IMG/VR virus record: IMGVR_UViG_3300035660_000016
Span: 1 to 49,476 of that record
DNA: 49,476 bases
DNA from: a virus
Direction: 5' to 3' (one strand)
The position numbers and the translations under genes were made by a program. The number at the start of each line of letters is the position of its first letter. Position 1 is the stretch's first letter. Under the pieces are notes generated by a model. The model was not told the DNA's origin. It did no database searches and saw only the letters and a list, made by a program, of their open reading frames with translations. Shown one piece after another: positions 1,608 to 49,476 of this stretch.

Positions 1608-2651
1608 TTATGCATTAGATGCAGAAGCGATACCTCTTGGATTCACAATCCCAATCCCTATAATTTCACTGACAACCCAACCGAGCTTCAATTGTTTCGG
1701 TTCGTCAGCGGGCAGCACCTCAATGTCCTGGCGAATTGGCATTACACCAACGAACTCAGGCTCAGCAAGAGCGTAAACTGTACCTGTTGGCACAATCTTG
1801 CTGACGATCATGTCGGCACCCCAGATCTGGCCGTAAAGACCAGTCTGAAGAACTTCGCGAGCCGTTACCGGGTCGAAGCCGCCGTATAGAGGAGCAGCAA
1901 GTGCACCAGCTGGACCAGCGCCTGGCTGGAAGTTGAAGGCCAATAGGTCGGTGAACTGACGAATGTGCATAAAGTACTTCGCAGTCACGAGATCCCACTC
2001 ATCAATGAGCTGCTTCATATTGAGCAGATCAGGCATGGTGAGACGGCCACCAGCGCCAGTTGCGAAACCAACGCGAGCGTTTTCACCACCGAACCCAGCG
2101 GCAACGTCGGATGCGAAATCGACGGCTGAGAAGATGTTGGCATCTTCCTGGGCCTGGATTTCCTGCCGAGCCTTTTGCTGGGCACGATCAATGACGTTGA
2201 ACCGACGCCGCTTGACCTCTGCGATGCGGACGGTTGGATTCGAAACGACCTCAAACTCGGGGACGTTTACTCTCTCACCGTACACGCGGGACTCAGGAAC
2301 TGAACCATTGGTAGCAATGATACAGGCCGCGACATCGATATCCTTGTCGTAAACTGCAAGAGCACCCTGGGGAAGTGGATCCACCACAAGGGCCTTACGG
2401 CCTACACCCTGGTAATCCAGGTTTCTACGAATTGGGTTTGCCATAGCCTGACCTAGGGCAACCTTACCCTCAGACGACATAAGTGCCTGAGCGAGCATAG
2501 CTTCCTTCTGTTCATCGGAAAAAGAAGGAGCATCTGACTCGACTGCAGCACTATTCGGACCGGACAACATATTGGCATACTTCAGTAGGCCTTGAATTGC
2601 TTCGGCTCTGCCGTGTGCATTAAGCTGACCGGAGTTATTGAATGTACTCAT
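1608..2651 (-). CDS. major capsid protein
   Basis: 347-residue protein that I read as the HK97-fold major capsid protein. The N-terminal third is Ala/Gln-rich and helical. The middle has a basic RIAEVKRRRFNVIDRAQQKA segment, as expected for a long spine-helix region. The C-terminus has the strands LGWVVSEIIGIGIVNPRGIA, a pattern common in large-phage capsid proteins. It starts at an ATG with an AAGGAGGAG ribosome site and is followed by the strongest terminator in the window, fitting high late expression. A putative decoration protein lies 12 bases upstream. I see no F-[TC]-K motif in this protein. The assignment rests on residue pattern, size, the terminator and the terL-portal-protease-capsid order. 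Confidence 0.8.
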   Translation of the reverse strand: MSTFNNSGQLNAHGRAEAIQGLLKYANMLSGPNSAAVESDAPSFSDEQKEAMLAQALMSSEGKVALGQAMANPIRRNLDYQGVGRKALVVDPLPQGALAVYDKDIDVAACIIATNGSVPESRVYGERVNVPEFEVVSNPTVRIAEVKRRRFNVIDRAQQKARQEIQAQEDANIFSAVDFASDVAAGFGGENARVGFATGAGGRLTMPDLLNMKQLIDEWDLVTAKYFMHIRQFTDLLAFNFQPGAGPAGALAAPLYGGFDPVTAREVLQTGLYGQIWGADMIVSKIVPTGTVYALAEPEFVGVMPIRQDIEVLPADEPKQLKLGWVVSEIIGIGIVNPRGIASASNA

Positions 2652-11889: not shown

Positions 11890-14073
11890 TTATGACCAAT
11901 CAAGCTTGCTCAGATCGGTACCGAGACTCTTCTGATTGTCAATAACTCCTACGCGGAGTGCACCAGCTGACTTCACGAGAGGCTTCTCTACCTTCGCATC
12001 CTTGACCACATTAGTGTGCTCAATGACATCCTCAAATGCCTCAAAACCAGTCGTGTCCATGCCAACCAGACGCTCCACCTGCTCCTCGAGAGCGGCAGGT
12101 GTGCTCTCAACCTGACCGATTGCTTGTTGCTTCAGAGCAACCTTGTATGCCCTCTTCATCCGATTCTTCAACTCGTGGGCCTCCGCTGTGCTCTTCTTGC
12201 CAGCAAACTCATCGGTCATTTCCTTACCGAATGCCTTCGCAGCAGGATCAGAAGCATTACCCGTTGAACTCTCATTAAAGAGCTCCTTGTAGTATGTCTT
12301 GGTCTCACCATCGACCTCAGCCATAGCCTTCAAGGCCTCATGACGAGCTTTGCGCCGCTCGGACAAAGAAGCCTTCTTCTCATCCTTCTTTTCTTCCTTC
12401 TCTTCCTTATCCTTTAGTGCTTTTGTCATAGGCTCTTTCTTGTCGCCATCCTTATCCACATCGAGGAAGTCTGGCTTCTTTTCCTCAGCCTTCACAACCT
12501 TGGTCTCTTCCTTCTTCGCAGTAAGCTCACCACGAGGCTGCTTTTCAGCAACTTCCATGTCAGCATCCTGTTGCTCCTTCACGGTCTCGATATGGGCATC
12601 ACCCTCGAGCTTCTCACCTGCAGCGAGTGTATCTGTCCCACCCTTTGGATGGGCCTCACCAATCATATCGCTGTCTGTAAGTCCATACATCTTGGAGAGT
12701 TCCGCAGCAAGAGCATACCGTTGAGCCTTGCGCTCAAGGAGGGAAGCTTCCTTCTTCTCTTCCTTCTTCTCGGCCTTATCCTCTTTCTTTTCTTCCTTCT
12801 TATCTTCCTTCTTATCCTCTTTCTTATCCTCTTTCTTATCCTCTTTCTTATCCTCTTTCTTATCCTCTTTCTCTTCCTTCTTCTCGGCCTTATCTTCTTT
12901 CTTCTCTTCCTTCTTGTCCTCTTTCTTGTCCTCGGCGGCTACCTTCTCAATCTTTGGAGAAGCAGGCTTATCCTTACCGAGAATTGTATTTGCCCTCTTG
13001 AGAATCTTATCAGCATCGCTAACCGCTTCCTTGGCAACTATTGCGAGTCTCTTGAGAAGCTTTGTGTCTGTCTTTGCCTGCGCCATATCCATCTGCTTGC
13101 CAAGACCCTTCAATTCACCTCCGGCCTCATCGAGATCCATCTCGGTCTCAAGGCCTTCGACGCCTGGTTCGCCTTCACCCTCATTGAGAGCACGGAGCGC
13201 ATGAATAGCATCTTCAATCTTATCAATCTCCTGAACAATCTGCTCCTTCACTGGCAGTTCTTTACCCTCTTCGGGCTTTGGTTCACCAGGAAGTCCCTCA
13301 CCCTTTGGCATCTCGTCGCCCATTGGAGGAAGTGCTTCAGCTGGAGGAGGTGCAGGAGGAAGTTCCTGTGCCTTCTTGGTAAGCGACTTGGATTGATTAA
13401 TCTGAGCCTTTACTTCATCAAAACCAAGCTCCTTCACGGCACGAATCAGGTTTTTGCCGTACTCTTCGGAGGCAACCCAGTCCCAATTTGTGATTTGTGG
13501 ATTCTCTTCGTGGGCCTTGAAGAGATCTTCTGCATATAGTTCCTTAGCAGTTGCGGAAAGAACAGGTGTCTCACCGGCAAATACTGTCCAAGTTGAATTT
13601 TCCTTCTTCTCGGCATTAACGAAACGGGCCCGTAGCTTTGCACGCTGAAGTTGTTCCTTTATCTTCAGATCATCATCAGCGAGACCCTCATTACCTGGCT
13701 CCATGCCCTGACCAACCATATGTTTATCCTCTTCACGATAATGCTCGTAATCTTCCTTGTCATAAGGCAGAGCTGATGGATCATTAAGACCCCCACCACC
13801 CTGGAAGTAAGCACGCTGGAGAATAGACTGACGAATCTTGCGTCGATCCTCGAGACTTGCACGATGGAGCTGCTCCTTCAATGCAAGATCTGGACCCGTG
13901 CTCTTGTAGCCAGGGTGCATACCCTCATTACCTGGCTCCATGCCCTGGCCGACCATTTGCTTATCCTCTTGTTCGCGAACCGTTTCGTAATCTTCCTTGT
14001 CATAAGGCAGAGCTGATGGATCATTAAGACCCCCACCACCCTGGAAGTAAGCCTTTTTCTTACTATTAGTCAT
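11890..14073 (-). CDS. nested scaffold protein from an internal in-frame start, 727 aa
   Basis: Within the protease gene an ATG at 14073 (MTNSKKKAYF) is preceded by AAGGAGG with a 7-base spacing, the best ribosome site in that gene. It opens the same frame right at the domain boundary between the protease and the scaffold. This matches the nested protease/scaffold arrangement known from phage lambda C/Nu3 and similar systems. The product would comprise the KAYFQGGGG repeats, the Pro-rich linker, the Lys/Glu/Asp tract and the C-terminal helical region. Expression of this shorter form is inferred. Confidence 0.55.
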   Translation of the reverse strand: MTNSKKKAYFQGGGGLNDPSALPYDKEDYETVREQEDKQMVGQGMEPGNEGMHPGYKSTGPDLALKEQLHRASLEDRRKIRQSILQRAYFQGGGGLNDPSALPYDKEDYEHYREEDKHMVGQGMEPGNEGLADDDLKIKEQLQRAKLRARFVNAEKKENSTWTVFAGETPVLSATAKELYAEDLFKAHEENPQITNWDWVASEEYGKNLIRAVKELGFDEVKAQINQSKSLTKKAQELPPAPPPAEALPPMGDEMPKGEGLPGEPKPEEGKELPVKEQIVQEIDKIEDAIHALRALNEGEGEPGVEGLETEMDLDEAGGELKGLGKQMDMAQAKTDTKLLKRLAIVAKEAVSDADKILKRANTILGKDKPASPKIEKVAAEDKKEDKKEEKKEDKAEKKEEKEDKKEDKKEDKKEDKKEDKKEDKKEEKKEDKAEKKEEKKEASLLERKAQRYALAAELSKMYGLTDSDMIGEAHPKGGTDTLAAGEKLEGDAHIETVKEQQDADMEVAEKQPRGELTAKKEETKVVKAEEKKPDFLDVDKDGDKKEPMTKALKDKEEKEEKKDEKKASLSERRKARHEALKAMAEVDGETKTYYKELFNESSTGNASDPAAKAFGKEMTDEFAGKKSTAEAHELKNRMKRAYKVALKQQAIGQVESTPAALEEQVERLVGMDTTGFEAFEDVIEHTNVVKDAKVEKPLVKSAGALRVGVIDNQKSLGTDLSKLDWS

Positions 14074-15216
14074 TTTGGATCCTCCTTCGATAATGGTTCC
14101 ATTATCCTGTATATGTAGCGCTACATTGTCCTCCTTTTCACTGGAAGACGGAATTCCAAGCTTTTGGGCAACCTTCATCCGTGCTGCCCGACGCTGTTGA
14201 ATTTCATCAACCACGTCATTGGTTTCTATCTTTGAACAACCGCAATTGTCATTTGGACTTTTCTCGGCGAGTAGTTCCTGCACTTGTGCTTGAATCTTCT
14301 TTAGTTCATCTCGAATTTTGTTGGCCTCTATCGGATTAATACAACTATTCAACTTGCACTCACGATCCTGAATTTGTTGATTCAAGGCAGCAATAACAGT
14401 TTTTATCTTGGCCTTAGAGTCAGCACCATTGCTAACAACCGATATCTCAATAAAATTGAGACCATTATTGATCTCATATACCGAACGACTTCCTGCGCGG
14501 GCCAATCCCTTGCCGTCCTTCACATGCTTGCAATAATCGGCCTCTGTCACGGCCTTATTGCCGCACTCAGAACATAAGCTATATTGAACTTGGGTACCCA
14601 TTGACACATCAGAACTGTATCCCATTTCAATTTGACGAGCTAATTCTGGATATAGCTTTTTATCACAAGCAACCAGAATGTCCACACCTTTTGTGTCTGG
14701 ATCCCATGTCGCATCAAGGATGATGCCCCGAACTTTTTCAACATCATCACTGGCATGATTTACAAAGAGACCCCTTTTAATAAACGTCTCAAAAGCTCTC
14801 CCCCTTCTCTTGCTCCCATCAGGATCAACTATCTCGACCTCTTTGAGTAGCTCGGCCTCTGGAAAGGCATCACCATTTTGATTTACATAAGGTAAAATGC
14901 CTTTTTGAGAATGCCAGAGCCCATTTTGCCACTTTTCAACAGATTGACCACATTCTTGACAATTCCCATCCTTGACGAGCTTAATAATATGCCCATCACC
15001 ATTAAACGTTTTGGTGATTGGGTCATAATTGGCTGCTTCCATAGCATGGATCGCCCTGGCGACAAAATACACAAACTCGTTCGACTTGGGAAATTGACGC
15101 TTCGTACTAGCTACCAAGCTCCTGAAATGCTCCATTCTTACCTCTGAATTGAGAGCCACTTCAGGACTTACCAGCTTCGACACATCTAATGTTGCTACCG
15201 CATACTTTTTCAGCAT
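11890..15216 (-). CDS. prohead maturation protease fused to scaffold protein, 1108 aa
   Basis: 1108 residues. Residues 1-270 form a prohead serine protease: FVNHASDDVEKVRG (candidate His 154), MGYSSDVSMGT (candidate Ser 205) and LNFIEISVVSNGAD (acidic residue 257), in the order seen in phage maturation proteases. Two Cys pairs (CQECG; CSECGN...DYC) may bind zinc. Residues from 382 on form a scaffold-like region: a duplicated KAYFQGGGGLND unit, a Pro-rich linker after SLTKKA (near 608), coiled segments, and a long Lys/Glu/Asp repeat. A strong internal start at 14073 suggests that the scaffold is also made alone. The protease is expected to cleave the scaffold, itself and other head proteins. 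Assignment of the triad is by pattern. Confidence 0.8.
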   Translation of the reverse strand: MLKKYAVATLDVSKLVSPEVALNSEVRMEHFRSLVASTKRQFPKSNEFVYFVARAIHAMEAANYDPITKTFNGDGHIIKLVKDGNCQECGQSVEKWQNGLWHSQKGILPYVNQNGDAFPEAELLKEVEIVDPDGSKRRGRAFETFIKRGLFVNHASDDVEKVRGIILDATWDPDTKGVDILVACDKKLYPELARQIEMGYSSDVSMGTQVQYSLCSECGNKAVTEADYCKHVKDGKGLARAGSRSVYEINNGLNFIEISVVSNGADSKAKIKTVIAALNQQIQDRECKLNSCINPIEANKIRDELKKIQAQVQELLAEKSPNDNCGCSKIETNDVVDEIQQRRAARMKVAQKLGIPSSSEKEDNVALHIQDNGTIIEGGSKMTNSKKKAYFQGGGGLNDPSALPYDKEDYETVREQEDKQMVGQGMEPGNEGMHPGYKSTGPDLALKEQLHRASLEDRRKIRQSILQRAYFQGGGGLNDPSALPYDKEDYEHYREEDKHMVGQGMEPGNEGLADDDLKIKEQLQRAKLRARFVNAEKKENSTWTVFAGETPVLSATAKELYAEDLFKAHEENPQITNWDWVASEEYGKNLIRAVKELGFDEVKAQINQSKSLTKKAQELPPAPPPAEALPPMGDEMPKGEGLPGEPKPEEGKELPVKEQIVQEIDKIEDAIHALRALNEGEGEPGVEGLETEMDLDEAGGELKGLGKQMDMAQAKTDTKLLKRLAIVAKEAVSDADKILKRANTILGKDKPASPKIEKVAAEDKKEDKKEEKKEDKAEKKEEKEDKKEDKKEDKKEDKKEDKKEDKKEEKKEDKAEKKEEKKEASLLERKAQRYALAAELSKMYGLTDSDMIGEAHPKGGTDTLAAGEKLEGDAHIETVKEQQDADMEVAEKQPRGELTAKKEETKVVKAEEKKPDFLDVDKDGDKKEPMTKALKDKEEKEEKKDEKKASLSERRKARHEALKAMAEVDGETKTYYKELFNESSTGNASDPAAKAFGKEMTDEFAGKKSTAEAHELKNRMKRAYKVALKQQAIGQVESTPAALEEQVERLVGMDTTGFEAFEDVIEHTNVVKDAKVEKPLVKSAGALRVGVIDNQKSLGTDLSKLDWS
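12740..12935 (-). repeat. in-frame minisatellite encoding a Lys/Glu/Asp tract
   Basis: Short repeats of the type TCTTTCTTATCC (plus strand) encode KEDK/KEEK units in the scaffold part of the protease gene. They form a highly charged, probably helical or disordered linker. The tract should vary in copy number by slippage. A shorter, similar tract is in the gene at 36207-36758. Confidence 0.8.
13681..14052 (-). repeat. 80-codon tandem duplication in the scaffold region
   Basis: Two direct repeats lie 240 bases apart. Positions 13745-13812 and 13985-14052 are identical over 68 bases, and the flanking parts (around 13684 and 13924) are near identical. They encode the KAYFQGGGGLND...LPYDKEDYE...MVGQGMEPGNEG unit twice. 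The identity suggests a recent duplication or ongoing conversion. Confidence 0.85.
14079..14087 (-). promoter_or_regulatory. internal ribosome binding site for the nested scaffold
   Basis: AAGGAGGAT on the minus strand ends 5 bases before the in-frame ATG at 14073, inside the protease gene. Its near-perfect match and placement at a domain boundary argue for a functional internal start. Confidence 0.6.
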
Positions 15217-23549: not shown

Positions 23550-25212
23550 AGATTTCCAATTTCTTCAATTCTTTCAAAAGTGTTGATGTTTGAAACAGCG
23601 TGCCTTCAACCTGATCGTCAAATTTGATGCGCTCCCTAAGAAATTGTTGGTATTTATCAATTGCCTCAGTCATTTTATCTAGACACAAAGCAACATCTTT
23701 AAAAATTTCCTTTGCGGTATTTATTGTTGCTGTGTTCTTTTCTAAATTTTCACCCATTTCTATGAATCTCTTAAACTCTGACAAAGGCCTACCATAAGAA
23801 AGCATTTGATCAAGTGGGTTTTGTTCAAATATCTTTTCTATATATTTACTTATCTCCCTTTCGAGCTCTCGCAACTCAGCAAACACACTCTTCCCTGCTC
23901 TTTTGCAGAATCTCTTTGCACCACTCGATTTGAGCCACTTTTCGAGCTCTTCGGAAGATGGACTTTTCTCTACATCTTGACCAGTTATTTTGTGTAAATG
24001 CCTTATACCCTCTTCAATTAATTTATCTTTTACCACCAAAGCCCTGTCTTCAATTGCTTGCCACTCTTCTTCTGGGATATTGGTATTATTCAAAAGCATC
24101 CTTTTTGTACCTTCGAGAAATCTATCCCAAACCTGATTAATATCAGATTCAATTTCCTTAGGGTCTTTTTCATTGGAGCCCTGACCTCCCATTAGTTCAT
24201 AGTCTATCCAGGCAATCCAATCTCCATATAAATCGTATTCACCACCAATTTCTGGGCCAAGACCTTGGACTTCAGAACCCAACTCCTTAGGCTTGAGGCG
24301 CTCAATGGCAGTTGAAATATATTGTTGCACCCCAGGATCATATACAATCTTTGGATAAAGCTTTTGAATAATAGATTTATCTACTTCTATATCGTTAGAA
24401 TCTACTAGTCTTCCTAGTTCTTTTAAGAATGGTCCCCAATAATGTTCAAGATTGCTTTGTAGCTTACGAGGATCTACACCTTGTTCTATCTTATTTAAAA
24501 TAAACTCAGACCATTTATGCTTTAGAAAGTATTCTACCTTCTCTTCTGGAGTCTTTTTCTTCCATTCAGCCTTAGACTCCTCAATCATTTCTTTTCTTCT
24601 TTTCTCCCAATGCTCTCTCAGTTTTTTACTCTGGGCATCTCCTTCAGGAGTCGATTTCCTTTCTTCTTCTGGTTTCCACCAATCGGCGGCATCTGGGTCA
24701 TCCTCTTCCTCCCAGGCAGCTTTCTTGCAAAACGACTTCACCGAGCCAAATCTTTGTGGTGGCATGATTGTTGGCTCATTCTGCTCTACCTCTTGTGTTA
24801 TGTTGGGGCTGTTTGCTGATAGACCCTCTTTGAGTGATTGATCTACAATTTGTTCTTGTACTTGCCTTCTCTTGTCTCGACGCTTTCTCAAATCGTCCCA
24901 GAATCCCCAGGACCCTACAGAAATGAACGGCTTATGCTCGTATTCTTTCTTGATTCTTTCCAGGCGATCTTTTTTGCTCTCGGTAGATTTCTTTCTATCA
25001 TAGGTGGGGCGAAATGGATCATTAGTAGTGGCATCTGGACTTTCCTTCTCTTCGTCCATCCTACCTTTCTCTAACTCATTTTGTTCAGCAAGCTCTTTTT
25101 GTAAATCTCTCTCCTGTTCCTTCTGGAACCATTGAGATCCACCCATCTCTTTGTCAAGAGAATTAAAATCGTCAACTAAGTACTGGGAAAAATAATCACC
25201 TGAGCCTGGCAT
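23533..25212 (-). CDS. charged virion-module protein with two F-C-K motifs, 559 aa
   Basis: 559 residues, very rich in Glu, Lys and Trp and mostly helical. It contains two copies of the shared motif: VKSFCKKAAWEEEDD near residue 157 and AKRFCKRAGKSVFAE near 430. The segment before the second copy (PSSEELEKWLKSS) and the one after the first (AAWEEEDDPDAAD) also occur in the 562-residue protein at 45524-47212. That shows a shuffled set of modules. The C-terminal third is a long coiled-coil-like region. If the motif is a processing site, this protein would give three products of about 157, 272 and 130 residues. Function unknown; likely an internal head protein. Confidence 0.6.
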   Translation of the reverse strand: MPGSGDYFSQYLVDDFNSLDKEMGGSQWFQKEQERDLQKELAEQNELEKGRMDEEKESPDATTNDPFRPTYDRKKSTESKKDRLERIKKEYEHKPFISVGSWGFWDDLRKRRDKRRQVQEQIVDQSLKEGLSANSPNITQEVEQNEPTIMPPQRFGSVKSFCKKAAWEEEDDPDAADWWKPEEERKSTPEGDAQSKKLREHWEKRRKEMIEESKAEWKKKTPEEKVEYFLKHKWSEFILNKIEQGVDPRKLQSNLEHYWGPFLKELGRLVDSNDIEVDKSIIQKLYPKIVYDPGVQQYISTAIERLKPKELGSEVQGLGPEIGGEYDLYGDWIAWIDYELMGGQGSNEKDPKEIESDINQVWDRFLEGTKRMLLNNTNIPEEEWQAIEDRALVVKDKLIEEGIRHLHKITGQDVEKSPSSEELEKWLKSSGAKRFCKRAGKSVFAELRELEREISKYIEKIFEQNPLDQMLSYGRPLSEFKRFIEMGENLEKNTATINTAKEIFKDVALCLDKMTEAIDKYQQFLRERIKFDDQVEGTLFQTSTLLKELKKLEIYVKAK

Positions 25213-26540: not shown

Positions 26541-29500
26541 TTACATTCCCAGAAAACTACCAAATTTCTCTTTTAGAATTTCATCCGTTAGATCTATACC
26601 ATCTGTATTATTATTTATTGCTATAAACTTATATGGCAAAGTTGAATAGAACTTCTCTTTTGCCTTTTTCTTTTCTCTATACAACTCTGATGTGTTTGCT
26701 GCCTTTGAATCGGCAATCGATCCGAATACTTCGACATAAGCCTGTACATCACCATTGGAACTAGTGATTATAAAATCTGGGATAAAATGTTTATATCCTT
26801 GGAGTTGTAGTTCAGGATCTTCTACCACCAGTCTGTCTTGGTCAGAGGCAAGCCTAAATGGCACATTATTTAGTTCCAGGAATCGATGTACCCTCAACTC
26901 TTCTGTGCTGTGTTTTAGCTTATTATTGTCGTCATAAAAAAGAGCATATGAAGGAGCGGCTTCTACTACAAGATCACTCCAGGTACATCCAAGTCTCTTT
27001 ACGCTATCTCGTAGCCCCTCCAAAGAGCGTCCTACTCCCAGTAGTGGTTTATAGATATCTGGGTGTGATCGGAAGAAGCTGTAAGTTAGTGGCAATCCAG
27101 CGGTATGAGCCTCTTGTAAAAGCTCTATAATCTCATCCCTATCCCAAGCATGACACATTTTTTCCTTGCGGCGATAGTACTTGATAGCATCTTCTAAGGT
27201 CTTAATCGGCTTTTCGGTTAGTTTGTCGCCATCTCTTTCAACACCCACAATCAAAATGTTGTTTGCCATTGCATTATCAAAAGAGTCGTAATATGTCGGA
27301 AAGCCCCGGCTTTCAGATTTTGGTAAGCTATGGTTAGTCAGTTGATACATCAAATTAGGTGGCAACCTCAATCTACTAACCGGCTTGCCACCTCTATAAA
27401 GATCCTGGATAGTCTGGTCGATCTTTTTCTTGTCCCAGTGTTCGAACTTCATTCCCTGAAGATCATCTTCTAGATCGTACATCGACTCAAGCTTCTGTTT
27501 CACTGCAAGCCAAGATTTGTTGAGGATGTAGGCAGCTGCTTTGTAAATGATATGATGTGGAATCCCACGCTGACGATACTTTAGGTAAAGCTCCTTCAAA
27601 CGAATTTTTTCCTCTGGAGACCAACGAGGTGAGGAGAATTTGGTGAAAGGCTTAAAGCTGGAAGCAGTTGCATAAACCTCTTCTATAATTGGAATAATCC
27701 AGTCCTCCATTTTAGCCCTCTCTTCTGGGGGAGAGGTTGGATGTTGTGCTGCACCTACCATTCTATCAATAGCCACCCAAACAGGATACCCCTGTGCCTT
27801 GTATTCTTGAGCGTTCATCCGTGCAGCTGCCTCGAGGGCTTCTCGTTCATAGGGATTTGCGTAATACTTAACCGCCCTGGGCAACTTTGATGGCGCTAAA
27901 CGCTCTTGCTGTCGCTCATAGTCGCCAACAAACTCCTTGTATGGATCTTTCTTCTGGGGCAGATAACGATCCATTGCCTTAATAAATTGCAAAGCGTGTG
28001 TCATTTCATGTGCAATTGTACTATTGAGTGCTTCGATAACCTCCAAATCACCATCAAGAACACTCTCTGCTCCCCAGATCTGCATAAAGACTCGTGTCAT
28101 AGTTTTGCCAGGGTAATAGGAAGCCACAACCAAATTTTTTCTACTCTGTTGGATCTCAATCTCTAATTCATCTGCAAACAGAAGCGCAGTTTCTGGATCA
28201 ACTCTTTGGCGAAGGAACACATTTACCAAAATTTCCTGCCAAAGTGTTGGCAAATCTTTCGAAAGGCTGAACTTAACAGGTACCCTCGCCTCGAATGCCT
28301 CCAGTGCTCTCCTAACCACTTGTTGCCATTCGTACATTGTTTCACTCGAATATCGAGCTTTTTCCTCTGGCATCCAACGAGGAGAGGAGAATTTGGTGAA
28401 ACTTCGTATCGAGACATCTGCATTGTGCTTCTTAGATACTTCTTCTATGGTAGGAATAACAGCGGATATGTCTCCTTTGCTGAGCTGTTTTATAACTTGC
28501 CAAGCTCTTTCCTCGCCAAGCCCTTCTAGAAATTCGATTACAGCTCGAATCTTCTCTTTTGACCATCGCCTCTTCTCCATTAATCGGCGCAACTCTATCT
28601 CTGCCGCTTCAAGTCTCCAATCAGGGCTTTTACGAACATTCTCGTATCCAATGGGTGAAACCTGAAATCCAGTTGGAGTCATTTCAAGTCCATGAGCTTT
28701 TTGGCCCGCCTTCACCCTTCTCCACTCCCTTATGCGAGGAACTGCTATCTCGGCGTTCCAAGGTTGATCAAATACCATCACCTTTATATCACCTGTATCT
28801 ACAAGGCTCTCGACCCAGTCTGGCCTATCGTCGATGAAAACATCTATTCCTTCTTCTCGGGCTTCCTTGCTCTTACCCTCACCAGCGGTCATCACCAACT
28901 TGTCATATTTGAGACCAATCTTCTTTAACCACTGCTCTGTTTGATCTCTCCACCCCTGAGAACGTGCTGTGATCAAAATGATTCTATGCCCCTTATTGTG
29001 CAGTTCGTTTATCTTTTCCACTGCCCCTGGGATAGTCGGCATGTTTGCTACCATGCCTTTGTCATACATTTCTTTGAAGAGCCTGCTTCTCAGCTCTTTT
29101 GTACCATGCTTGGTATCCTCAACGTGATATTGTTTCTTATCCTCTTCATCAAGTGGAATGTACTTACTCGCCATCTCCCACAATATTCCATGGAGATCGG
29201 CAATCACGTCATCAATGTCAATACCAATAGTAAACTTGCGATCTGCTATTTTGGTAAATCTTTTTAATGATTGACTTTTTGATTTACCAAAAGCCTCAGG
29301 ATCTATCTCGATCCCAAAAATGTTTTCCACCTCGCTTGCGCTCATGTCTCCAACATCAACATCCTGGATGTTATGGACATTCTTCAATTCTCGCAGATAC
29401 TTATTTAGACTATTTTCAAAAGCAGCCAGATCCTTTTTTGAAGGCTCCAGAATAGCATTCGGTCTCATAACCTTTCCAAAAGCCCATGCGGGGCACTGCT

Positions 29501-32500
29501 CCCATGTATGGATTTTATCCAAATAATACTTGGTCTCATCTAATGGTAAAAAGTTTTGAAGTTGATTTACCTTTCTTTTCAAACGTCGCAATGTTTTAAA
29601 TTTAAATGCATCAGAACTAACTTGTGCTGTTTTGCAGAAGCTTTGTGCTGAGGCTTCTTTCCCTTGATGCGCCATGAAGAAGTCATCGAGCTGCTCTATA
29701 AATTTGTTTATTTCCTCTTCATTCCAATCTTTCTTTGCAGATAGGAGGTCATATATTTCATTCGTATATTCTTCCCAAGCATCAACTATCTCCAACCCTT
29801 CTTTCTCCTGCATAGCTGGGAAATAATATTTTAGGAAGTTTTCCCAAAGTTTTTGTGGCTCTTTTGTGTAGAGAAGAAGTTCATGACGTGTAAAAAGTCG
29901 TGCGGTTTTGCAGAAACCTTTCACTGAGCTCTGTGGAAACAGCCTCTTGATGATTTTATGCGATTCTTGCTGTGCTGGACTTTCTCCACCAGGAAACTTG
30001 TACTGCTCTGGGTCCCAATCAAGCACATGCCCCTTCTCGTGAGAAATGACCTCTATGAGTACCCTCTGTACGGCTTCTTCCATTGCTTCTCGATGCTCTG
30101 GATTATTGGCATCAAATGTACCAAACTTCGATTTTACTTCGTTAATTATTCGCTGAACATTGAGATGAACAACGGAGGGATCCTCGGAAGAAACTTGTCC
30201 ATAGGGCCCACCATGAAGAGCTATGATTTTGGAAACACCAACAAAGTAATTAGGATCAGCGGCAACTATCTTTTCTACTGCATCTTGGATTTCTGCCTTG
30301 ATAGTCGGATCAATCTCTATGCGAGGAGACTGAATATTGATGTTTTTTTGCAGGGATTCCCCTGGTTTTACCTGTGCAGTTTTCGTAAAACCCTTCACCT
30401 TGGCACGCCTATATGGTTTCAAATATTGAAGCATGTTATATACTTGAGGAGCTTTATTTTTAATATCTTCAATGGTCCATTTGCCTGTTTTATTATCCAA
30501 AATCTGTCTTATCTCTGCCTCACTAAGAGGATCACGATGTCCTGGTCTGACAACAAGTGCATACTCTTCACCCAGTACAAGTCCCCCATTATGTTCTAGA
30601 TCCATCAAATGATCAAGAGCCAAAATTAATTGCTCGATATTTGCCGCGTTGGCAGGCAACATTTTTTCAACTTTTGATGCAGCCTCGGCTAGGATAGACC
30701 AGTTGTCATCCATGCCTACAACTTTTGCAAATTCGAACATTTCAGACATGGATGCCTTTCCAGCGTGGATCTTTTTAAAGAATGCATCTATTGAACCAAA
30801 TCTTTGCTGCACCCTTTTAAAAGCCTCTACTCCAATGGCCATGTAAGAAACAATGTGTCGATTCACTCCATTATATATTGCCTGCAGCATAGCAGATGCC
30901 AGCCCATCAACAACTGAAAAAACATACCTAAGAAAACCAGATGGTGCGTACTCAAGTAAATCAATTAATGTCTGAATGGCATAAAATTCTTCAAGTTGTT
31001 GCAGATTTATCTCGGGTGTTTCAAATATATGATTAGCCCAAGCTTCCATCATGACCTCATGAAGATCATTATCCATAGCCAGATCATATACAACTTCTTT
31101 GCCAAGTTTCGATTCAAACTCTGCTATAATTTGCGCTATCTTATCTGGGCTATCAGTGCTTTGAAAAGCCTCAATAAATTCCCGTTCTACGGCAGAATCC
31201 GGCTCTTCTGACTCCTCAATCTCAACTTCTTTAGTGGCTACCTGTGCAGTCTTCTCGTTCTTCGTTCTACTCCACTCAGCAAACAGGGCATCAGTAGCTA
31301 CAACATCGAAAGGATAACCCCATTGCCATGGTCCAAACTTGTGGAATGACCATCCCCACGAATCGCCCGTCTTGTTCTTGAGAATGGTGCCTATATATTC
31401 ACTTTTGTAATAAATATCAAAACAATGATCAACATCAGGATGTGGTCTCATTTCCAGACCTGGAACAGATGCTCTTTTGGTAAAACTTTTGAGGGATGCT
31501 GCTTGATATCTTTTTAATTGTTGATATATATTGTACACTTGAGGAGCATGCGTCTTAAAAAAATTCCAGTCCCATCCTGCAGACTTGTCGGTCAACAAAT
31601 TACCTAAATGTTCTATCCCTGCCTCTTTGAATTGAACATAATCATTTAAAAATAAATCATTGTTATGTTCCAGATCTACCACGCGGTCCACTTGAAGCAC
31701 CACCTGATTTACATTTGACAAATTCACGGGTAGCATGCTCTCAAGTTTACCAACCTCTTTTGCGATTTCAGACCAAAGCATTCCACCATAAGGACTACTC
31801 GACATAATGGGGCTTCTAAAAAGTTCTGACAGCTCAGCAAAAGATATTTGAAAACTACCCAACTTACTTAAAAAGTTGTCTGTGCCACCATGTTTGGCGC
31901 TGAAATATTGAAGCTGCTTTTGAACCTGTCTAGGAACTGCAATGTTAGATCTCATTTCAGAAGAAGCGCCTAATCTACCAGCTTTGACAACCTTTTGTGC
32001 AAAATCTTCTATAATATTTAATACTTCTCTAACGACTCCAGAAGATGCATATTCCAACAATCCAGCAAGATGTGCCGCTCCGTAAAAATTGTAAAAATCT
32101 TGTTCATCCAAGATATTTGGTAGCCATCCCTTCCATTTAGTAGAGCCAATATCCATTAGTTTTTGAAATACCTTCTCGTGAAAAGTAGGCGGCAATCCTA
32201 CATCAATAAGCGCCTTACTATCGCATATCGATTCGAGCATTCTGTACACTGCATCGGCACTGGTGGCATTCTCGACCTTCTTCTGCATTGTCGCTAACTC
32301 ATCTTTTTGATCCGGTTCTGTTTTTTCGAACTTCCAACTTTCCTCACCATTCTCTCTAGCTCTTTTGGTAAAACTTTTAACAGAGCCACTAACTTCTTTT
32401 GTGTATTCTATTTGTGTTTTACCTTCATGACCATGTAGCCTGATCATTTCATCTATATCCTTGAACATCTCAATAGTTTTATTTTCCGTAGTCCATTCTA

Positions 32501-33119
32501 TAATCACTTTACCACTTGGAAGAACTGCACCATAGGCTACCATACCTGTCCCAGAAATACCTGTTTCATCCTCATTTCGCTTCAAAGAGAATGGTCTTAT
32601 TCCTGGCTCGTCTTTTGATTTTGGTGCCTGGCCTGTGGTAAATACCATTTCTGTCTTACCACTATGTCCATGTACTGCTTTCATTTCCTCTGGATTTTCA
32701 AATATAGTAATCGAAGAATGAGCACTGGTCCACTCGATCGCCACTCGACCCGTCGGCAAAACGATACCAAATGCCACCTTACCTGTACCTGAAACACCAG
32801 TTTCGTCTTCTTTACGATTTAGGTAGAAAGTTTTGACTTCTTCTTCTGGCTCAGAAGACTCAAACTCCCAGGATTCCTCGCCGTCTTCTTTGGCTTTTTT
32901 GGTAAAGCTCTTCAAAGCACCAACTGGGTTGCCAGTGGAATACCCAAACGGAGCAGGAATAAAAGTGGCAGGTAGGGATGTGATTGGGGTCTGAGTACTC
33001 ATATTCTCTCTGGCTTTCCCAGAGTTATTATCAAAGAACTCAACTGGAGCTATGGGATTAGGACCAAGAGTTATCTTCTTTTTCTTGAGTTCAAACTTCT
33101 TTGAAAATTTCTTGATCAT
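26541..33119 (-). CDS. 2192-aa polyprotein-like virion protein with nine F-[TC]-K boundaries
   Basis: Starts by ATGA overlap with terL. The motif [SGRP]F[TC]Kx[AS] occurs at residues 71, 249, 545, 910, 1068, 1160, 1287, 1573 and 1824, always between domains. Domain order: N-terminal arm; a duplicated unit of about 75 residues (DETGVSGTG / DETGISGTG); two paralogous helical domains (about 285-540 and 645-905, each with a VYN and LEHN signature); a zincin-like domain with HEKGH (1027-1031); two small helical domains; a HAD phosphatase like 5'(3')-nucleotidases (GIDIDDVIADLHG 1299-1311, ILITARSQGW, FIDDRPDW); a second zincin-like domain with HEMTH (1704-1708); and a C-terminal nuclease (HFIPDFII...YVEVFG, 2111-2133). 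I infer a precursor cut into about ten internal head proteins. Alternatively it stays one giant protein. Confidence 0.75.
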   Translation of the reverse strand: MIKKFSKKFELKKKKITLGPNPIAPVEFFDNNSGKARENMSTQTPITSLPATFIPAPFGYSTGNPVGALKSFTKKAKEDGEESWEFESSEPEEEVKTFYLNRKEDETGVSGTGKVAFGIVLPTGRVAIEWTSAHSSITIFENPEEMKAVHGHSGKTEMVFTTGQAPKSKDEPGIRPFSLKRNEDETGISGTGMVAYGAVLPSGKVIIEWTTENKTIEMFKDIDEMIRLHGHEGKTQIEYTKEVSGSVKSFTKRARENGEESWKFEKTEPDQKDELATMQKKVENATSADAVYRMLESICDSKALIDVGLPPTFHEKVFQKLMDIGSTKWKGWLPNILDEQDFYNFYGAAHLAGLLEYASSGVVREVLNIIEDFAQKVVKAGRLGASSEMRSNIAVPRQVQKQLQYFSAKHGGTDNFLSKLGSFQISFAELSELFRSPIMSSSPYGGMLWSEIAKEVGKLESMLPVNLSNVNQVVLQVDRVVDLEHNNDLFLNDYVQFKEAGIEHLGNLLTDKSAGWDWNFFKTHAPQVYNIYQQLKRYQAASLKSFTKRASVPGLEMRPHPDVDHCFDIYYKSEYIGTILKNKTGDSWGWSFHKFGPWQWGYPFDVVATDALFAEWSRTKNEKTAQVATKEVEIEESEEPDSAVEREFIEAFQSTDSPDKIAQIIAEFESKLGKEVVYDLAMDNDLHEVMMEAWANHIFETPEINLQQLEEFYAIQTLIDLLEYAPSGFLRYVFSVVDGLASAMLQAIYNGVNRHIVSYMAIGVEAFKRVQQRFGSIDAFFKKIHAGKASMSEMFEFAKVVGMDDNWSILAEAASKVEKMLPANAANIEQLILALDHLMDLEHNGGLVLGEEYALVVRPGHRDPLSEAEIRQILDNKTGKWTIEDIKNKAPQVYNMLQYLKPYRRAKVKGFTKTAQVKPGESLQKNINIQSPRIEIDPTIKAEIQDAVEKIVAADPNYFVGVSKIIALHGGPYGQVSSEDPSVVHLNVQRIINEVKSKFGTFDANNPEHREAMEEAVQRVLIEVISHEKGHVLDWDPEQYKFPGGESPAQQESHKIIKRLFPQSSVKGFCKTARLFTRHELLLYTKEPQKLWENFLKYYFPAMQEKEGLEIVDAWEEYTNEIYDLLSAKKDWNEEEINKFIEQLDDFFMAHQGKEASAQSFCKTAQVSSDAFKFKTLRRLKRKVNQLQNFLPLDETKYYLDKIHTWEQCPAWAFGKVMRPNAILEPSKKDLAAFENSLNKYLRELKNVHNIQDVDVGDMSASEVENIFGIEIDPEAFGKSKSQSLKRFTKIADRKFTIGIDIDDVIADLHGILWEMASKYIPLDEEDKKQYHVEDTKHGTKELRSRLFKEMYDKGMVANMPTIPGAVEKINELHNKGHRIILITARSQGWRDQTEQWLKKIGLKYDKLVMTAGEGKSKEAREEGIDVFIDDRPDWVESLVDTGDIKVMVFDQPWNAEIAVPRIREWRRVKAGQKAHGLEMTPTGFQVSPIGYENVRKSPDWRLEAAEIELRRLMEKRRWSKEKIRAVIEFLEGLGEERAWQVIKQLSKGDISAVIPTIEEVSKKHNADVSIRSFTKFSSPRWMPEEKARYSSETMYEWQQVVRRALEAFEARVPVKFSLSKDLPTLWQEILVNVFLRQRVDPETALLFADELEIEIQQSRKNLVVASYYPGKTMTRVFMQIWGAESVLDGDLEVIEALNSTIAHEMTHALQFIKAMDRYLPQKKDPYKEFVGDYERQQERLAPSKLPRAVKYYANPYEREALEAAARMNAQEYKAQGYPVWVAIDRMVGAAQHPTSPPEERAKMEDWIIPIIEEVYATASSFKPFTKFSSPRWSPEEKIRLKELYLKYRQRGIPHHIIYKAAAYILNKSWLAVKQKLESMYDLEDDLQGMKFEHWDKKKIDQTIQDLYRGGKPVSRLRLPPNLMYQLTNHSLPKSESRGFPTYYDSFDNAMANNILIVGVERDGDKLTEKPIKTLEDAIKYYRRKEKMCHAWDRDEIIELLQEAHTAGLPLTYSFFRSHPDIYKPLLGVGRSLEGLRDSVKRLGCTWSDLVVEAAPSYALFYDDNNKLKHSTEELRVHRFLELNNVPFRLASDQDRLVVEDPELQLQGYKHFIPDFIITSSNGDVQAYVEVFGSIADSKAANTSELYREKKKAKEKFYSTLPYKFIAINNNTDGIDLTDEILKEKFGSFLGM

Positions 33120-34978
33120 CTCCTACCTCTTATTTGATTCCTTGCAAGTGGTCTCATTGACGACAAACCAGGCATTGGCATACTACGATTACCACTAAAT
33201 GATGGCTGATTCATATCATTAAAACCCTGTGTCTTCTGGAACATATAGCCTACGTAGGCATACATCAGGGCACAGGCCCCATCAACTGGTTTTCCAGCCC
33301 CTTGTTTACGATATTGTTTCTTTATTTGTCCCGAGCCTCCCGTGGTCGTCACGATTTCAATGTTTGAAATATGTTGCATCAACCATTCTACCCTTATTGG
33401 CTCTTTGTATGGAAAACAGAATACCTTTTGATCAAGCATTAAATCATAGAACTCCTCAAAGACTCGATGCTTGTCAATGGTAATCTGTTTATTTTCTCTA
33501 TCAAATCTATATGTCGATTTACAATTCGCACTTGATATAATTTCTAATACTCTGTCTGGATACTTATCCTTCAGTACTTGGTTCTGAACATGTCCAGCAC
33601 CAAAATCGCACGCTACTACCTTGCAATTATACATTCGAATCCAGTTGATAATGTCATCTAGCTGTCCTTCAGGACCAACTACACTGGTCTGCTCCATTCT
33701 ATGTGCAAACTCGAGCTTGAACTTTCCTTGGGGCAGTCTTGAGAGAACCGTAAAAACAGTGTAGCCCCCTTGTCCTTCATCATCTTCTCCAGAAATACGT
33801 TGTCCCCAGTCAATACCTGCCCAGGTCATTTTATCAGCAACTGCAATACTAAAACGCCAATCATGTGTATCTGGGTCTTTTGTTGTAGCCTCAACAACTT
33901 CACCAAAAGATGGACCAGTTTCACGACCTGCGTAAAATTCGCCCATACTCTCATTGGCAAAGGTGCGAGCTGTTTTATCACGAAGTTTTTCGTCTATTGA
34001 TTCACGAGTGATCCCAGGAATCAACAGCTGGCTAATGTGATATCCTCGTGATGTTATTTTCTTTTTCTCTTCCTCAGTTTCTGGTATATTTTGTACTACC
34101 CACTTGCCACCCTTTATGGCTCGTCTTTTATCCATTTTTCCATGACAGCCACGGCCCTCTTTATCACGACATTCTACAAGATAGCCCTCTAATAGATTTG
34201 TATCAATCACTTCTCGGGCAGTGGTATATTCATAAAAAAGAGGAAAGAAGTGTCCACAATGAATGCACTTTAGGTAATACTCTCTCTTATCAGTACGCTC
34301 CCAGAGAGTATGAAAATCCGAACCAACATCCTTAGGTGTTCCAAAATTCAGCTCCAACCCAAAACCTGGTCTTCCAAACTTACTATGAGACAAGGCTTCA
34401 AGTGTATTTTCGTGTGCTGTACGAGCCAAGTCCTGGATCTCATCAAATAGTGCATAATCCGGTGAAATACCTCTCAATCGATCGCCCGCTTCACCAGCAC
34501 CCTCAATTAGTACGAAGTTTCCATTTTTAAACGGCTTCTGCGTGACTGAACCATCATTTACCAAAAGCTTGGCTAAGCAATTATCAACGGATTCTTGTAC
34601 TCTTGGTGAAAATGTTAGTTTAGAATAACGTCGAGCCTGCTCGATCTGTGGAAAGGTATGCAATCCACGAATATGATCATACGCACCACTACAAGCAAAA
34701 TACAATGAAATAGCACATGCTGTGGTAGTCATTTCAACCTGTCTACCCTTCTTCACCACAACTGCTTGACCTTTTGGACCTACCGCTTCCAGACAGATAT
34801 ACCTATAAATCTCGTGCAGATAATCTCGCCCACAATCTGACAACATGAAAGGCTGTGCATCGATGGTTAGTGCCTTTTGGGTAAATTCAACAGGATCCAG
34901 GAAACAAAAATCCAACAGAGGATCACCCATTAAAAATGGGCTATCACCCTTGACTTGAATTTTCTTCCTTCTTCCCAT
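33116..34978 (-). CDS. terL: terminase large subunit
   Basis: 620 residues with an N-terminal ATPase (Walker A-like VVVKKGRQVEMTTTA, Walker B YALFDEIQD). There is a Cys-rich insertion (CIHCGHFF ... CRDKEGRGCHGK) as in GpA-type terminases. The C-terminal RNase H-like nuclease has acidic residues in WAGIDWGQ, VVACDFGAGH and KPVDGACALMYAYVG. It packages DNA into the prohead through the portal. Translation starts at ATG 34978. Its AAGGAAAGAG ribosome site lies inside the 3' end of the upstream homing endonuclease (TAATATG junction), so the two are coupled. It overlaps the polyprotein start by 4 bases. Confidence 0.92.
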   Translation of the reverse strand: MGRRKKIQVKGDSPFLMGDPLLDFCFLDPVEFTQKALTIDAQPFMLSDCGRDYLHEIYRYICLEAVGPKGQAVVVKKGRQVEMTTTACAISLYFACSGAYDHIRGLHTFPQIEQARRYSKLTFSPRVQESVDNCLAKLLVNDGSVTQKPFKNGNFVLIEGAGEAGDRLRGISPDYALFDEIQDLARTAHENTLEALSHSKFGRPGFGLELNFGTPKDVGSDFHTLWERTDKREYYLKCIHCGHFFPLFYEYTTAREVIDTNLLEGYLVECRDKEGRGCHGKMDKRRAIKGGKWVVQNIPETEEEKKKITSRGYHISQLLIPGITRESIDEKLRDKTARTFANESMGEFYAGRETGPSFGEVVEATTKDPDTHDWRFSIAVADKMTWAGIDWGQRISGEDDEGQGGYTVFTVLSRLPQGKFKLEFAHRMEQTSVVGPEGQLDDIINWIRMYNCKVVACDFGAGHVQNQVLKDKYPDRVLEIISSANCKSTYRFDRENKQITIDKHRVFEEFYDLMLDQKVFCFPYKEPIRVEWLMQHISNIEIVTTTGGSGQIKKQYRKQGAGKPVDGACALMYAYVGYMFQKTQGFNDMNQPSFSGNRSMPMPGLSSMRPLARNQIRGRR

Positions 34979-36206: not shown

Positions 36207-36758
36207 TTATGCCTGTGTCCTTTGTGTTTCCTCTCTGATGATCATGTCAATTTGATTGGCCTCGTCCGTGAGACCCTTCTCATCGAGTGCATTGGCAATG
36301 CGAACCAGCTTCTCGAGAAGAGATGCCTCCTTCTTCTCTTCCTCTTTCTTTTCTTCCTTCTTTTCCTCTTCCTTCTCTTCCTTTTTCTCCTCTTTCTCCT
36401 CTTTCTCTTCTGCCTTCTTGGTAAACTTCTGGACATTCTTACCCTGAACACCCTTAGGATCCCTGCGAGCAACCTCATCAATCACTTCATGGACCTCATC
36501 AAGTGTCTCAACATGAGCATCAGCAGATGGACCAGTTGCCTTGATGTCGCTCTTCTTGACATCATAGACACCTTCGCCACCCTTGCCAGGATTTGAGACC
36601 TGCGTGGTGACTCCACCACCTGGATGAGCAATCTTGATCTCATCCTGTGAAGGACCCTGCTTGCTCTTATCCCAGTACTGGTCCTTATCGAGAGCTTCCT
36701 TAATCAGTTTCTTACCCGTCTCAGTGTTAAAAAATGCTTCCACTACATTCCAATCCAT
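36207..36758 (-). CDS. small scaffold-like protein with F-T-K motif, Lys/Glu tract and helical tag, 183 aa
   Basis: 183 residues. The first half resembles part of the scaffold encoded at 11890: both have an AHP-x-GG segment and then [GA]DAH[IV]ET. After that come QKFTKKAEEKE (motif at about 111), a Lys/Glu tract of 35 residues, and a C-terminal helical element (ASLLEKLVRIANALDEKG). The scaffold has EASLLERKAQRYA at the equivalent place. This is probably a paralogous or auxiliary scaffold, or an internal head protein. It starts with ATG behind TAAGGAGG. Confidence 0.65.
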   Translation of the reverse strand: MDWNVVEAFFNTETGKKLIKEALDKDQYWDKSKQGPSQDEIKIAHPGGGVTTQVSNPGKGGEGVYDVKKSDIKATGPSADAHVETLDEVHEVIDEVARRDPKGVQGKNVQKFTKKAEEKEEKEEKKEEKEEEKKEEKKEEEKKEASLLEKLVRIANALDEKGLTDEANQIDMIIREETQRTQA

Positions 36759-43257: not shown

Positions 43258-43264
43258 TACCCAC

Positions 43265-48768: not shown

Positions 48769-48853
48769 ATTCTTTTCTTTTCTATTAATCTTCGATATCT
48801 TATATCTCCACATTAATAGAAAAGACACCTTAAATTTTATTTTCTATAACTCC

Positions 48854-49476
48854 TTACCCATACAATCCGTAGAAACTAAAATCATGGTACTGGTAATAAC
48901 TTCTATCCAGATTGATTGTTGAGAACCCCTCAAACAGCCTCGGGTAAATGGGGCTACCCCGGAATATCTTTGGTACCTCTCTACCCTCTGTTGATGTTCC
49001 TGCATTACAATTTACAGCGTTCTTTCCCTCTATAATTTGTGCCGCATAAGGACATTGCTTACCCGTCTTATACTTTTCGAATATCCTCTTGTTCTGGGCG
49101 AACTCTTGCTCTCGTGGCTCCATTTCCTGCATGGCAGCTCCTACTTCACTGCATCCACCAGGGATTGGTAAGCCAAAGGGGCAACGCTGCTCCTTAGATA
49201 AATTATCTTTTCTTATTTCTGCCTTTTTGCAAAAATTACAAACCGCTTCCGCCAAACTATGTCTTTTTTTATAAACACTTAAAACAGCATCAATCGCACT
49301 TTGCTGTTCAAGTGCTTCAACTTCTATAATTCTATCTAACTCGTCAGCTAACTTTGTAAATCCTTGCCTATCAAGCACATCAGCAACTTCAACTAATTCA
49401 TCACCCTTACCAAAGTGGGCAATATTTTGTTCCAAGGTTGCCGTTTCTGCTTTTCTTTCCCAGGTTTCTGTGCCAA
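48854..49476 (-). CDS. virion-module protein with helical tag and F-C-K motif, 5' truncated by window edge
   Basis: The frame is open through the right edge (GTETWERKAETATLEQ before the only possible internal start, a TTG at 49435), so I treat it as 5'-partial with 206 codons visible. It has a helical element (VADVLDRQGFTKLADELDRI), then VCNFCKKAEIRKDN, the same order as in other module proteins. A Cys-containing segment follows (CPFGLPIPGGC ... CPYAAQII ... VNC). The C-terminus is aromatic (YYQYHDFSFYGLYG). Family not recognised. Confidence 0.6.
   Translation of the reverse strand, partial: GTETWERKAETATLEQNIAHFGKGDELVEVADVLDRQGFTKLADELDRIIEVEALEQQSAIDAVLSVYKKRHSLAEAVCNFCKKAEIRKDNLSKEQRCPFGLPIPGGCSEVGAAMQEMEPREQEFAQNKRIFEKYKTGKQCPYAAQIIEGKNAVNCNAGTSTEGREVPKIFRGSPIYPRLFEGFSTINLDRSYYQYHDFSFYGLYG

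Follow-up and report, generated by a model that had tools for sequence, protein, structure and literature searches.

What does a single gene for 2192 residues encode in the head operon of a tailed phage, where it lies between terL on one side and the portal gene on the other? This question was raised by the window analyzed here, a stretch of 49,476 nucleotides (positions 1 to 49,476 of IMG/VR record IMGVR_UViG_3300035660_000016) whose source is a tailed phage related to the huge phages. An earlier note on this DNA proposed that the chain is a precursor whose enzymes are packaged and matured in the head, an interpretation that was partly supported by our analysis.

Modules of the long chain

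The ORF begins with ATG, continues as one unbroken frame and, as had been described, is coupled to terL, with its start overlapping the terL stop (ATGA at 33116-33119). The motif [SGRP]F[TC]Kx[AS] was found where it had been reported, at residues 71, 249, 545, 910, 1068, 1160, 1287, 1573 and 1824, and nowhere else in the chain. The expected division into about ten modules stood, with the mass corrected to 251 kDa from ~245 kDa and the products to 76-365 residues from 70-369 (Table 1).

Table 1. Coordinates of the putative polyprotein, its modules and other head genes and motif copies in the window.
Feature	Position	Strand	Details
Modular polyprotein ORF	26541..33119	-	2192 aa, 251 kDa; ORF and motif scan
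Leader, aa 1-76	32892..33119	-	8.3 kDa, pI 10.2; ends in motif 1 SFTKKA (32892-32909); four-phage alignment
Module aa 77-254	32358..32891	-	two copies of small beta domain; ends in motif 2 SFTKRA (32358-32375); phrog_7499
Module aa 255-550	31470..32357	-	helical domain A; ends in motif 3 SFTKRA (31470-31487); paralogue of helical B
Module aa 551-915	30375..31469	-	small YIG domain and helical domain B; ends in motif 4 GFTKTA (30375-30392)
Module aa 916-1073	29901..30374	-	zincin-like domain 1, HEKGH 1027; ends in motif 5 GFCKTA (29901-29918)
Module aa 1074-1165	29625..29900	-	ends in motif 6 SFCKTA (29625-29642); motif borders
Module aa 1166-1292	29244..29624	-	basic; ends in motif 7 RFTKIA (29244-29261); motif borders
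Module aa 1293-1578	28386..29243	-	HAD phosphatase and helical part; ends in motif 8 SFTKFS (28386-28403)
Module aa 1579-1829	27633..28385	-	zincin-like domain 2, HEMTH 1704; ends in motif 9 PFTKFS (27633-27650)
C-terminal module aa 1830-2192	26544..27632	-	SANT-like and PD-(D/E)xK-like by eye; L006 homology
terL	33116..34978	-	PHROG_675 5.7e-59; overlaps polyprotein start codon
Head maturation protease fused to scaffold-like C-terminal part	11890..15216	-	PHROG_18299 8.8e-16; own motif SLTKKA aa 611 (13369-13386)
Major capsid protein	1608..2651	-	PHROG_2522 1.2e-70, match from aa 45; N-arm with LLKYAN at 22-27 (LLKYA 2574-2588)
Motif SFTKSA	9220..9237	-	in protein 9007-11466
Motif RFCKRA	23896..23913	-	in head-operon protein 23533-25212
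Motif SFCKKA	24718..24735	-	in head-operon protein 23533-25212
Motif KFTKKA	36411..36428	-	in protein 36207-36758; kept in L002
Motif NFCKKA	49220..49237	-	in protein 48854-49435; GFCKKA / SFCKQA in L002 / L005

The leader is common to the window phage and three relatives (identity 84/59/44% in the four-phage alignment), with the similarity stopping sharply at the motif and different modules following. The small beta domain was matched by phrog_7499 in two stretches (best 1.9e-44); in Streptomyces phages it is a 72-aa gene of its own near the terminase, and it stands alone in HHIV-2 as well. The two helical domains are paralogous, as claimed (30% identity over 240 aa, E=1e-30), and both end exactly at the motif, while the small YIG domain is present in L005 as well.

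The reported pair of HExxH zincin-like domains and the HAD phosphatase were also recovered. In an AlphaFold model, zincin-like domain 1 had a pLDDT of 80-90 and the flanking motifs 4 and 5 fell below 50, predicted as disordered; fold searches with this model gave nothing below E=0.001, the weak matches, none of them taken as proof, including zincin-type YbeY, LTA4 hydrolase and SprT-like proteins. Zincin-like domain 2 had a weak SprT-like match, and its module is missing from L006. The HAD module matched Pfam NT5C (3.7e-13 at 1298-1469) and the polynucleotide kinase PHROG_415 (3e-17), which makes it NT5C-like or polynucleotide kinase-like, and its homologue in L006 begins at an aligned ALIKQA. 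The C-terminal module shares 65% identity with the end of the L006 polyprotein, the match beginning right after GFTKQA in that phage. The nuclease previously placed here was seen by eye, as SANT-like and PD-(D/E)xK-like parts, but had no profile match, and an AlphaFold model of residues 1251-2192 made with one homologue was unusable (pLDDT 42). An ADP-ribosyltransferase assignment considered for residues ~592-874 of the L005 chain was dropped, having neither profile nor PDB support.

The border motif in the head operon and in relatives

In a leave-one-out PSSM each of the nine copies scored at least 14 bits, all falling within the top nine of the 2192 positions, and the best other position reached 5 bits. 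The extended consensus is [AS]x[LVIF][KR][SGRP]F[TC]Kx[AS]. Strict F[TC]K proved to be local to this lineage; what homologues keep is a core of hydrophobic-x-K-x-A/S, in relaxed form (F/L/I/M)xKx(A/S), whose K and A/S are retained across phages at ~30% protein identity while the adjoining residues vary. The motif does mark real domain borders, as had been suggested, but the strict form is missing at two of them, between the YIG domain and helical domain B (551-915) and between the HAD and helical parts (1293-1578). The ends of homology blocks lay a mean of 25 aa from a motif copy, versus 117 for positions drawn at random (p~1e-4, with bias). A derivation of the motif from a dispersed LDEKG hairpin was compared and the likeness judged coincidental, the K not being conserved in the hairpin.

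At least five further head-operon proteins, missed in the earlier note, carry the motif. Among them is the protein of the head maturation protease. This enzyme, S78-like or assemblin-like, is the candidate for processing, and its gene bears out the prohead protease named in the earlier note. Among capsid-protein N-arms, 60 of 62 distinct ones contain [LIVM][KR][YFH][AS]. Across the family, [FLIMV][TSC]KxA was enriched in head-region proteins (67 vs 30.6, z 6.7) and not in other proteins of those genomes (15 vs 16), and head-region proteins showed no enrichment when R or E replaced K or when G, S, L or V replaced A. Since [FLIMV][DENQ]KxA was likewise enriched in head-region proteins, part of what is seen across the family may be unrelated. 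Over all head genes the motif was enriched at N-termini, but weakly (10.1% against 6.2% for control genes).

Relatives were gathered by terL, leader and capsid-protein searches. The whole chain as a query against viral contigs found nothing, terL had no match among genome contigs, and a dehydrogenase search of genomes yielded cellular genes that had no such polyprotein nearby. In the alignments of homologues that the earlier note had called for, the motif stays at borders while the modules are swapped, split or fused at it. Directly before zincin-like domain 1, the K and A/S of the motif are present in six of six homologues and the sequence upstream is unalignable. Two of these proteins, in G031 (MIPLSKRA) and G032 (MKKIS), begin with the motif, and the other four carry it internally. 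Head operons of huge phages encode giant fusions of DNA ligase, LigD primase and phosphoesterase, DJ-1, ASCH and RNA ligase in which (F/L/M/I)xKxA precedes modules; the ASCH module follows PLSKLA, LISKRA or PMYKRA in three of these phages. Enzymes that are joined as one 2671-aa chain in G046 are separate in G031 and G019. The phage G003 keeps both the border motif and the protease, and no ORF of at least 150 aa on its coding strand contains HExxH.

Processing of the chain

We consider it rather probable, judging from sequence, that the chain is a head-packaged precursor cut at KxA by the assemblin-like head protease into separate proteins. The conserved basic leader of ~76 residues would direct the chain to the prohead core, and the S78-type protease would cut after hydrophobic-x-K-x-A/S, both at the leader and between modules, so that about ten separate proteins would be freed inside the head and probably injected. 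The motif would be a portable start tag, found at the N-terminus of single-module relatives and retained at the inner border when genes fuse, which would let modules be gained, lost, fused or split. This reading is favored because the nine sites outrank all others, with the leader and the block ends meeting the motif; because the zincin-1 and ASCH modules follow the motif across phages in which the same enzymes are fused or split; because motifs 4 and 5 are predicted as disordered beside a confidently folded domain; because the [FLIMV][TSC]KxA enrichment is confined to head-region proteins; and because G003 has the motif and the protease without an HExxH zincin. It is weakened by the borders that lack the strict motif, and by the fact that described prohead proteases mostly trim N-terminal propeptides and do not cut between folded enzymes.

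It is also weakened because proteins of the same type can be packaged intact, and a giant injected multidomain chain, in which the motif would recur as a docking or packaging tag or serve as a linker, is the alternative that survives best, though we regard it as unlikely. Its precedents are P1 DarB, a head protein of 250 kDa whose N-terminal targeting signal falls within 30 residues (PMC9024508), and the N4 virion RNA polymerase, which is packaged unprocessed (PMC5512222). Both are multidomain proteins of ~250 kDa or larger that are packaged in the head and injected, and both differ from the chain proposed here in being packaged intact. We know of no repeated border motif in either. Motifs at the N-termini of single proteins would also suit a packaging tag; however, with a shared leader such a tag need not recur at each border, K and A persist precisely where modules start, within flanks predicted as disordered, and relatives have the same modules as separate proteins.

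Cutting of the chain by its own two HExxH domains, with the motif as their site, is quite improbable. Metallopeptidase autoprocessing is a published idea for P1 DdrB and the polyvalent proteins (PMC5512222), but G003 keeps the motif with no HExxH in its coding-strand ORFs of at least 150 aa, and proteins free of zincins, the capsid protein among them, carry the motif too. Least probable is a joint at the DNA level alone, a linker homology for recombination during module shuffling with no function in the protein: it would suit the 48-nt direct repeat (88%; 27601-27648 / 28354-28401) that includes the motif and flanks the zincin-2 module, and the similar linkers after motifs 1 and 2, but not the retention of K and A/S among changing neighbors, nor a motif at protein N-termini, where no joint exists.

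The precursor reading can be extended, with about even confidence, to a whole clade of large relatives of phage G. These phages would make a virion enzyme kit in the form of long precursors, every module opening with a portable hydrophobic-x-K-x-A tag, and the capsid maturation protease would cleave them in the prohead; this would be a true cargo polyprotein of DNA phages with exchangeable modules. The kit would comprise zincins, an HAD/PNK-like phosphatase and the nuclease seen by eye, and in relatives DNA ligase, LigD primase/phosphoesterase, DJ-1, RNA ligase and topoisomerase. 

Comparison with known systems

The layout is not wholly new. The earlier note knew of no described phage system of this kind and overlooked the polyvalent proteins (Iyer et al. 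2017, PMC5512222), which are large, multidomain and virion-delivered, and have already been likened to polyproteins. Like the chain here, they combine shuffled enzymatic and other domains, zincin peptidases and nucleases among them, and in phages and conjugative elements they are encoded with portal-terminase late genes and predicted to be packaged in virions (PMC5512222). The present chain likewise joins disparate domains (HAD, two zincin-like, helical, beta and C-terminal), and its gene lies among packaging and late genes. The named polyvalent domains (MPTase-PolyVal, ART-PolyVal and LPD families) were not matched in a Pfam search of the chain at E<=0.1, nor found in the modules of the window, L002, L005 and L006 at E<=5. 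The available description mentions no repeated short border motif and ascribes the proposed release of domains to an embedded metallopeptidase (PMC5512222), whereas a trans-acting head protease would fit better here. The portable border tag, the exchange of cassettes and probable processing in trans are probably what is new.

In T4, IPI-III and Alt are head precursors with cleaved targeting sequences. In P1 DarA an N-terminal piece of ~9 kDa, similar in size to the leader here, is removed by the prohead protease (PMC12810830), and the SPN3US E proteins are also of this kind, the protease there cleaving after AxE (PMC10052503), unlike the KxA motif here. All resemble the window in their head-operon cargo, putative here, in a gp21/assemblin-like protease and in a short motif, here a candidate site, and, as in T4, an N-terminal leader here is common to otherwise different putative cargo. 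In those systems mostly one propeptide is removed, whereas here nine sites lie between about ten modules.

Among structural polyproteins of eukaryotic viruses, the ASFV precursor pp220 is cleaved in the assembling particle by a viral protease, at short motifs that recur along the chain. It has no homology to the chain here, and yields shell proteins rather than a set of enzymes. If the precursor reading is right, tailed phages would use the retrovirus and picornavirus solution of one precursor giving many mature proteins, and a single leader would load a fixed enzyme set into the head. The border motif would then be a tag for loading proteins into capsids, and would offer a rule by which packaged cargo, apparent DNA-end-repair kits included, could be recognized in uncultured huge phages. 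It also brings the separation of polyvalent proteins within reach of a direct test.

Bacillus phage G and metagenomic huge phages have capsid proteins 51-68% identical to that of the window phage and a similar head-module gene order. In phage G the capsid protein is without a motif-bearing N-arm, and instead of a polyprotein a separate M16 peptidase gene directly follows terL. The candidate catalytic His154 and Ser205 of the head protease are invariant in seven phages, phage G included.

A motif at module borders in a probable polyprotein

The 2192-aa ORF described in an earlier note was found to be real, with its frame open throughout, and each of the nine copies of the motif [SGRP]F[TC]Kx[AS] lay exactly at the residue given there. 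Its coupling to terL was also borne out, as the two genes share an ATGA overlap; the head operon runs terL, polyprotein, small gene, GAPDH-like gene, 23533 protein, portal, protease/scaffold and capsid protein. The motif copies formed a separate statistical class, scoring 14–28 bits (leave-one-out matrix) where the highest score elsewhere in the protein was 5 bits, and each was recovered among the top nine positions by a matrix built without it. Cutting after the A/S would give products of 76, 178, 296, 365, 158, 92, 127, 286, 251 and 363 aa.

We recognized a leader, two small beta domains (phrog_7499), zincin-1, zincin-2, a HAD domain (NT5C/polynucleotide-kinase-like), two paralogous helical domains and a C-terminal module, which upheld the helical pair, HAD phosphatase and two HExxH domains proposed earlier. 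The proposed nuclease corresponds to the C-terminal module, which was judged by eye to be SANT/PD-(D/E)xK-like, resembling the Myb/SANT plus PD-(D/E)xK type. Many free-standing homing-endonuclease-like genes are interspersed with the head genes, one matching PHROG_559. In Streptomyces phages the phrog_7499 domain is by itself a 72-aa protein whose gene lies close to that for the terminase, and in the archaeal virus HHIV-2 it has a gene of its own. In an AlphaFold model of zincin-1 (six sequences), pLDDT was 80–90 in the domain and <50 at residues 909–928 and 1069–1084 (polyprotein numbering, obtained by adding 888–889 to that of the model), the sites of motifs 4 and 5; fold searches with this model gave no significant match.

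Module exchange in relatives

The same gene follows terL in three IMG/VR contigs, L002, L005 and L006/G003 (terL identity to the window ~80%, ~72% and 62%). All share the leader with the window and carry different modules behind it, the outcome that the check suggested earlier had looked for, a motif kept while modules are exchanged: K and A/S were retained at every homologous border compared, while F may change to L, I or M. Zincin-2, flanked in the window by a 48-nt direct repeat (88%) containing the motif, is missing from L006. Homologous modules align end to end, the alignment stopping at the motif, and homology-block ends were closer to motif copies than expected by chance (p~1e-4), a value to be read with caution since the motif makes the alignments longer. 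That the motif marks module borders is strongly supported. The YIG domain in L002 (a small domain preceding helical domain B in the window) is flanked by weaker KxA sites, LMKVA and LHKQA, which suggests that degenerate border sites exist besides the strict motif.

Locations of features, and module order in relatives
Source	Coordinates	Feature or module order
Window	26541-33119	polyprotein (minus strand)
Window	25222-26280	GAPDH-like gene
Window	18817-23073	portal ORF
Window	9007-11466	hairpin-bearing gene
Window	16149-17630	hairpin-bearing gene
Window	36207-36758	hairpin-bearing gene
Window	36782-38452	hairpin-bearing gene
Window	45524-47212	hairpin-bearing gene
Window	48854-49435	hairpin-bearing gene
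Window	34980-36065	homing-endonuclease-like gene
Window	15238-16149	homing-endonuclease-like gene
Window	6081-6809	homing-endonuclease-like gene
Window	42415-43302	homing-endonuclease-like gene
Window	47197-48828	homing-endonuclease-like gene
L002		leader, unknown ~120-aa module, KFTKTA, beta domain
L002	11845-13152	region in which weaker KxA sites flank the YIG domain
L005		leader, different HExxH module, SFTKTA, short module, GLTKAS, YIG domain, zincin-1, GFHKEA, unknown module, AFSKTA, contig end
L006		complete, ~740 aa: leader, ~100 aa, ALIKQA, HAD, GFTKQA, C-terminal module
G046		2671 aa: DNA ligase, LLSKRA, large middle part, LISKRA, ASCH, LigD primase-polymerase, DJ-1, LigD phosphoesterase
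L167	4852-6342	zincin-1 homologue
L168	16220-18178	zincin-1 homologue
L170	10630-12318	zincin-1 homologue
L168	6502-14514	giant fusion
L166	8084-17341	giant fusion
L170	80-7795	giant fusion

Probable processing and the head operon

We infer that the polyprotein is cleaved and packaged, a reading that is highly interesting since it can be put to a direct test. The prohead protease claimed for the same module was identified as a head maturation protease (PHROG_18299), whose His154 and Ser205 (SMG motif) are invariant in seven phages including phage G. A motif copy of its own, SLTKKA at aa 611, separates the folded part from a proline-rich stretch. Herpesvirus assemblins, to which the head protease is related, cleave behind Ala residues that have a hydrophobic residue upstream, which gives a lead rather than a test. 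A rival view is that the chain is cut by its own HExxH domains. For polyvalent proteins, the nearest concept, the polyprotein analogy has been made and release assigned to embedded metallopeptidases, but a repeated border motif is not described in the available part of that account (PMC5512222). Self-cutting is disfavored because G003 keeps the protease and border motifs, and none of its coding-strand ORFs of at least 150 aa encodes an HExxH protein.

Among known systems, SPN3US gp245 cleaves after AxE, chiefly removing N-terminal propeptides (PMC10052503). P1 DarA loses ~9 kDa from its N-terminus (PMC12810830), similar in size to the 8.3-kDa leader here, and the targeting signal of the 250-kDa P1 DarB is short and N-terminal (PMC9024508). 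Text searches of an open-access library gave no account of a phage polyprotein that is cleaved at repeated motifs.

The GAPDH-like enzyme of the head operon is Type II (archaeal-type; NCBIfam, 2.6e-31), 62% identical to the G003 copy and 45% to that in a 186-kb viral contig (L027); MAGs, Desulfomonile among them, also have related genes. The portal ORF encodes 1418 aa versus ~600 aa in G003, with two ~400-aa intein-like insertions (BLAST match splits at about 170–570 and 789–1190). A ~24-residue helical hairpin, LxxLA[ND]xLDxKGxxxEAxxID, occurs in eight copies in six head-operon proteins of the window and also in relatives, with none in the polyprotein; it is perhaps a scaffold-docking module.

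The motif in the wider clade

Searching with the capsid protein led to 80 or more loci on IMG/VR contigs as long as 340 kb and, at 51% identity, to Bacillus phage G. With LDEKG hairpins masked, [FLIMV][TSC]KxA occurred 67 times in head-region proteins versus 30.6±5.4 after shuffling, and 15 versus 16 times in the remaining proteins that these genomes encode. The excess was gone when K was changed to R/E or A to G/S/L/V, with the caveat that [FLIMV][DENQ]KxA was enriched too. In the capsid protein N-arm, [LIVM][KR][YFH][AS] was present in 60/62 distinct sequences; the phage G protein is without the arm, beginning past its position, and the profile match in the window protein begins at residue 45.

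Zincin-1 homologues lie inside the head modules of loci G031, G046 and G019 and outside that of G032. Their alignment (six phages) has 14 invariant columns, including the motif K and HExGH, and is unalignable upstream of the motif, which in G031 and G032 is the homologue's own N-terminus. The homologues in L167, L168 and L170 extend into a peptidoglycan-binding-like part and also carry a dual-specificity/tyrosine phosphatase domain.

The border-motif theme is repeated in other giant head-operon proteins (G046, G031, G019). The enzyme set of G046 occurs in G031 as two proteins, plus 2'-5' RNA ligase behind PLSKMA, and is split further in G019, with topoisomerase I added. ASCH modules start directly behind PLSKLA, LISKRA or PMYKRA. 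Taken together, the huge-phage fusions in L168, L166 and L170 look like an end-joining kit, with DNA ligase, LigD primase and phosphoesterase, DJ-1, ASCH, 2'-5' RNA ligase and topoisomerase I. In L009 and L010, from another phage lineage, several small proteins begin with MKCPxxIxKxA or similar, which may be a further N-terminal tag of this sort.
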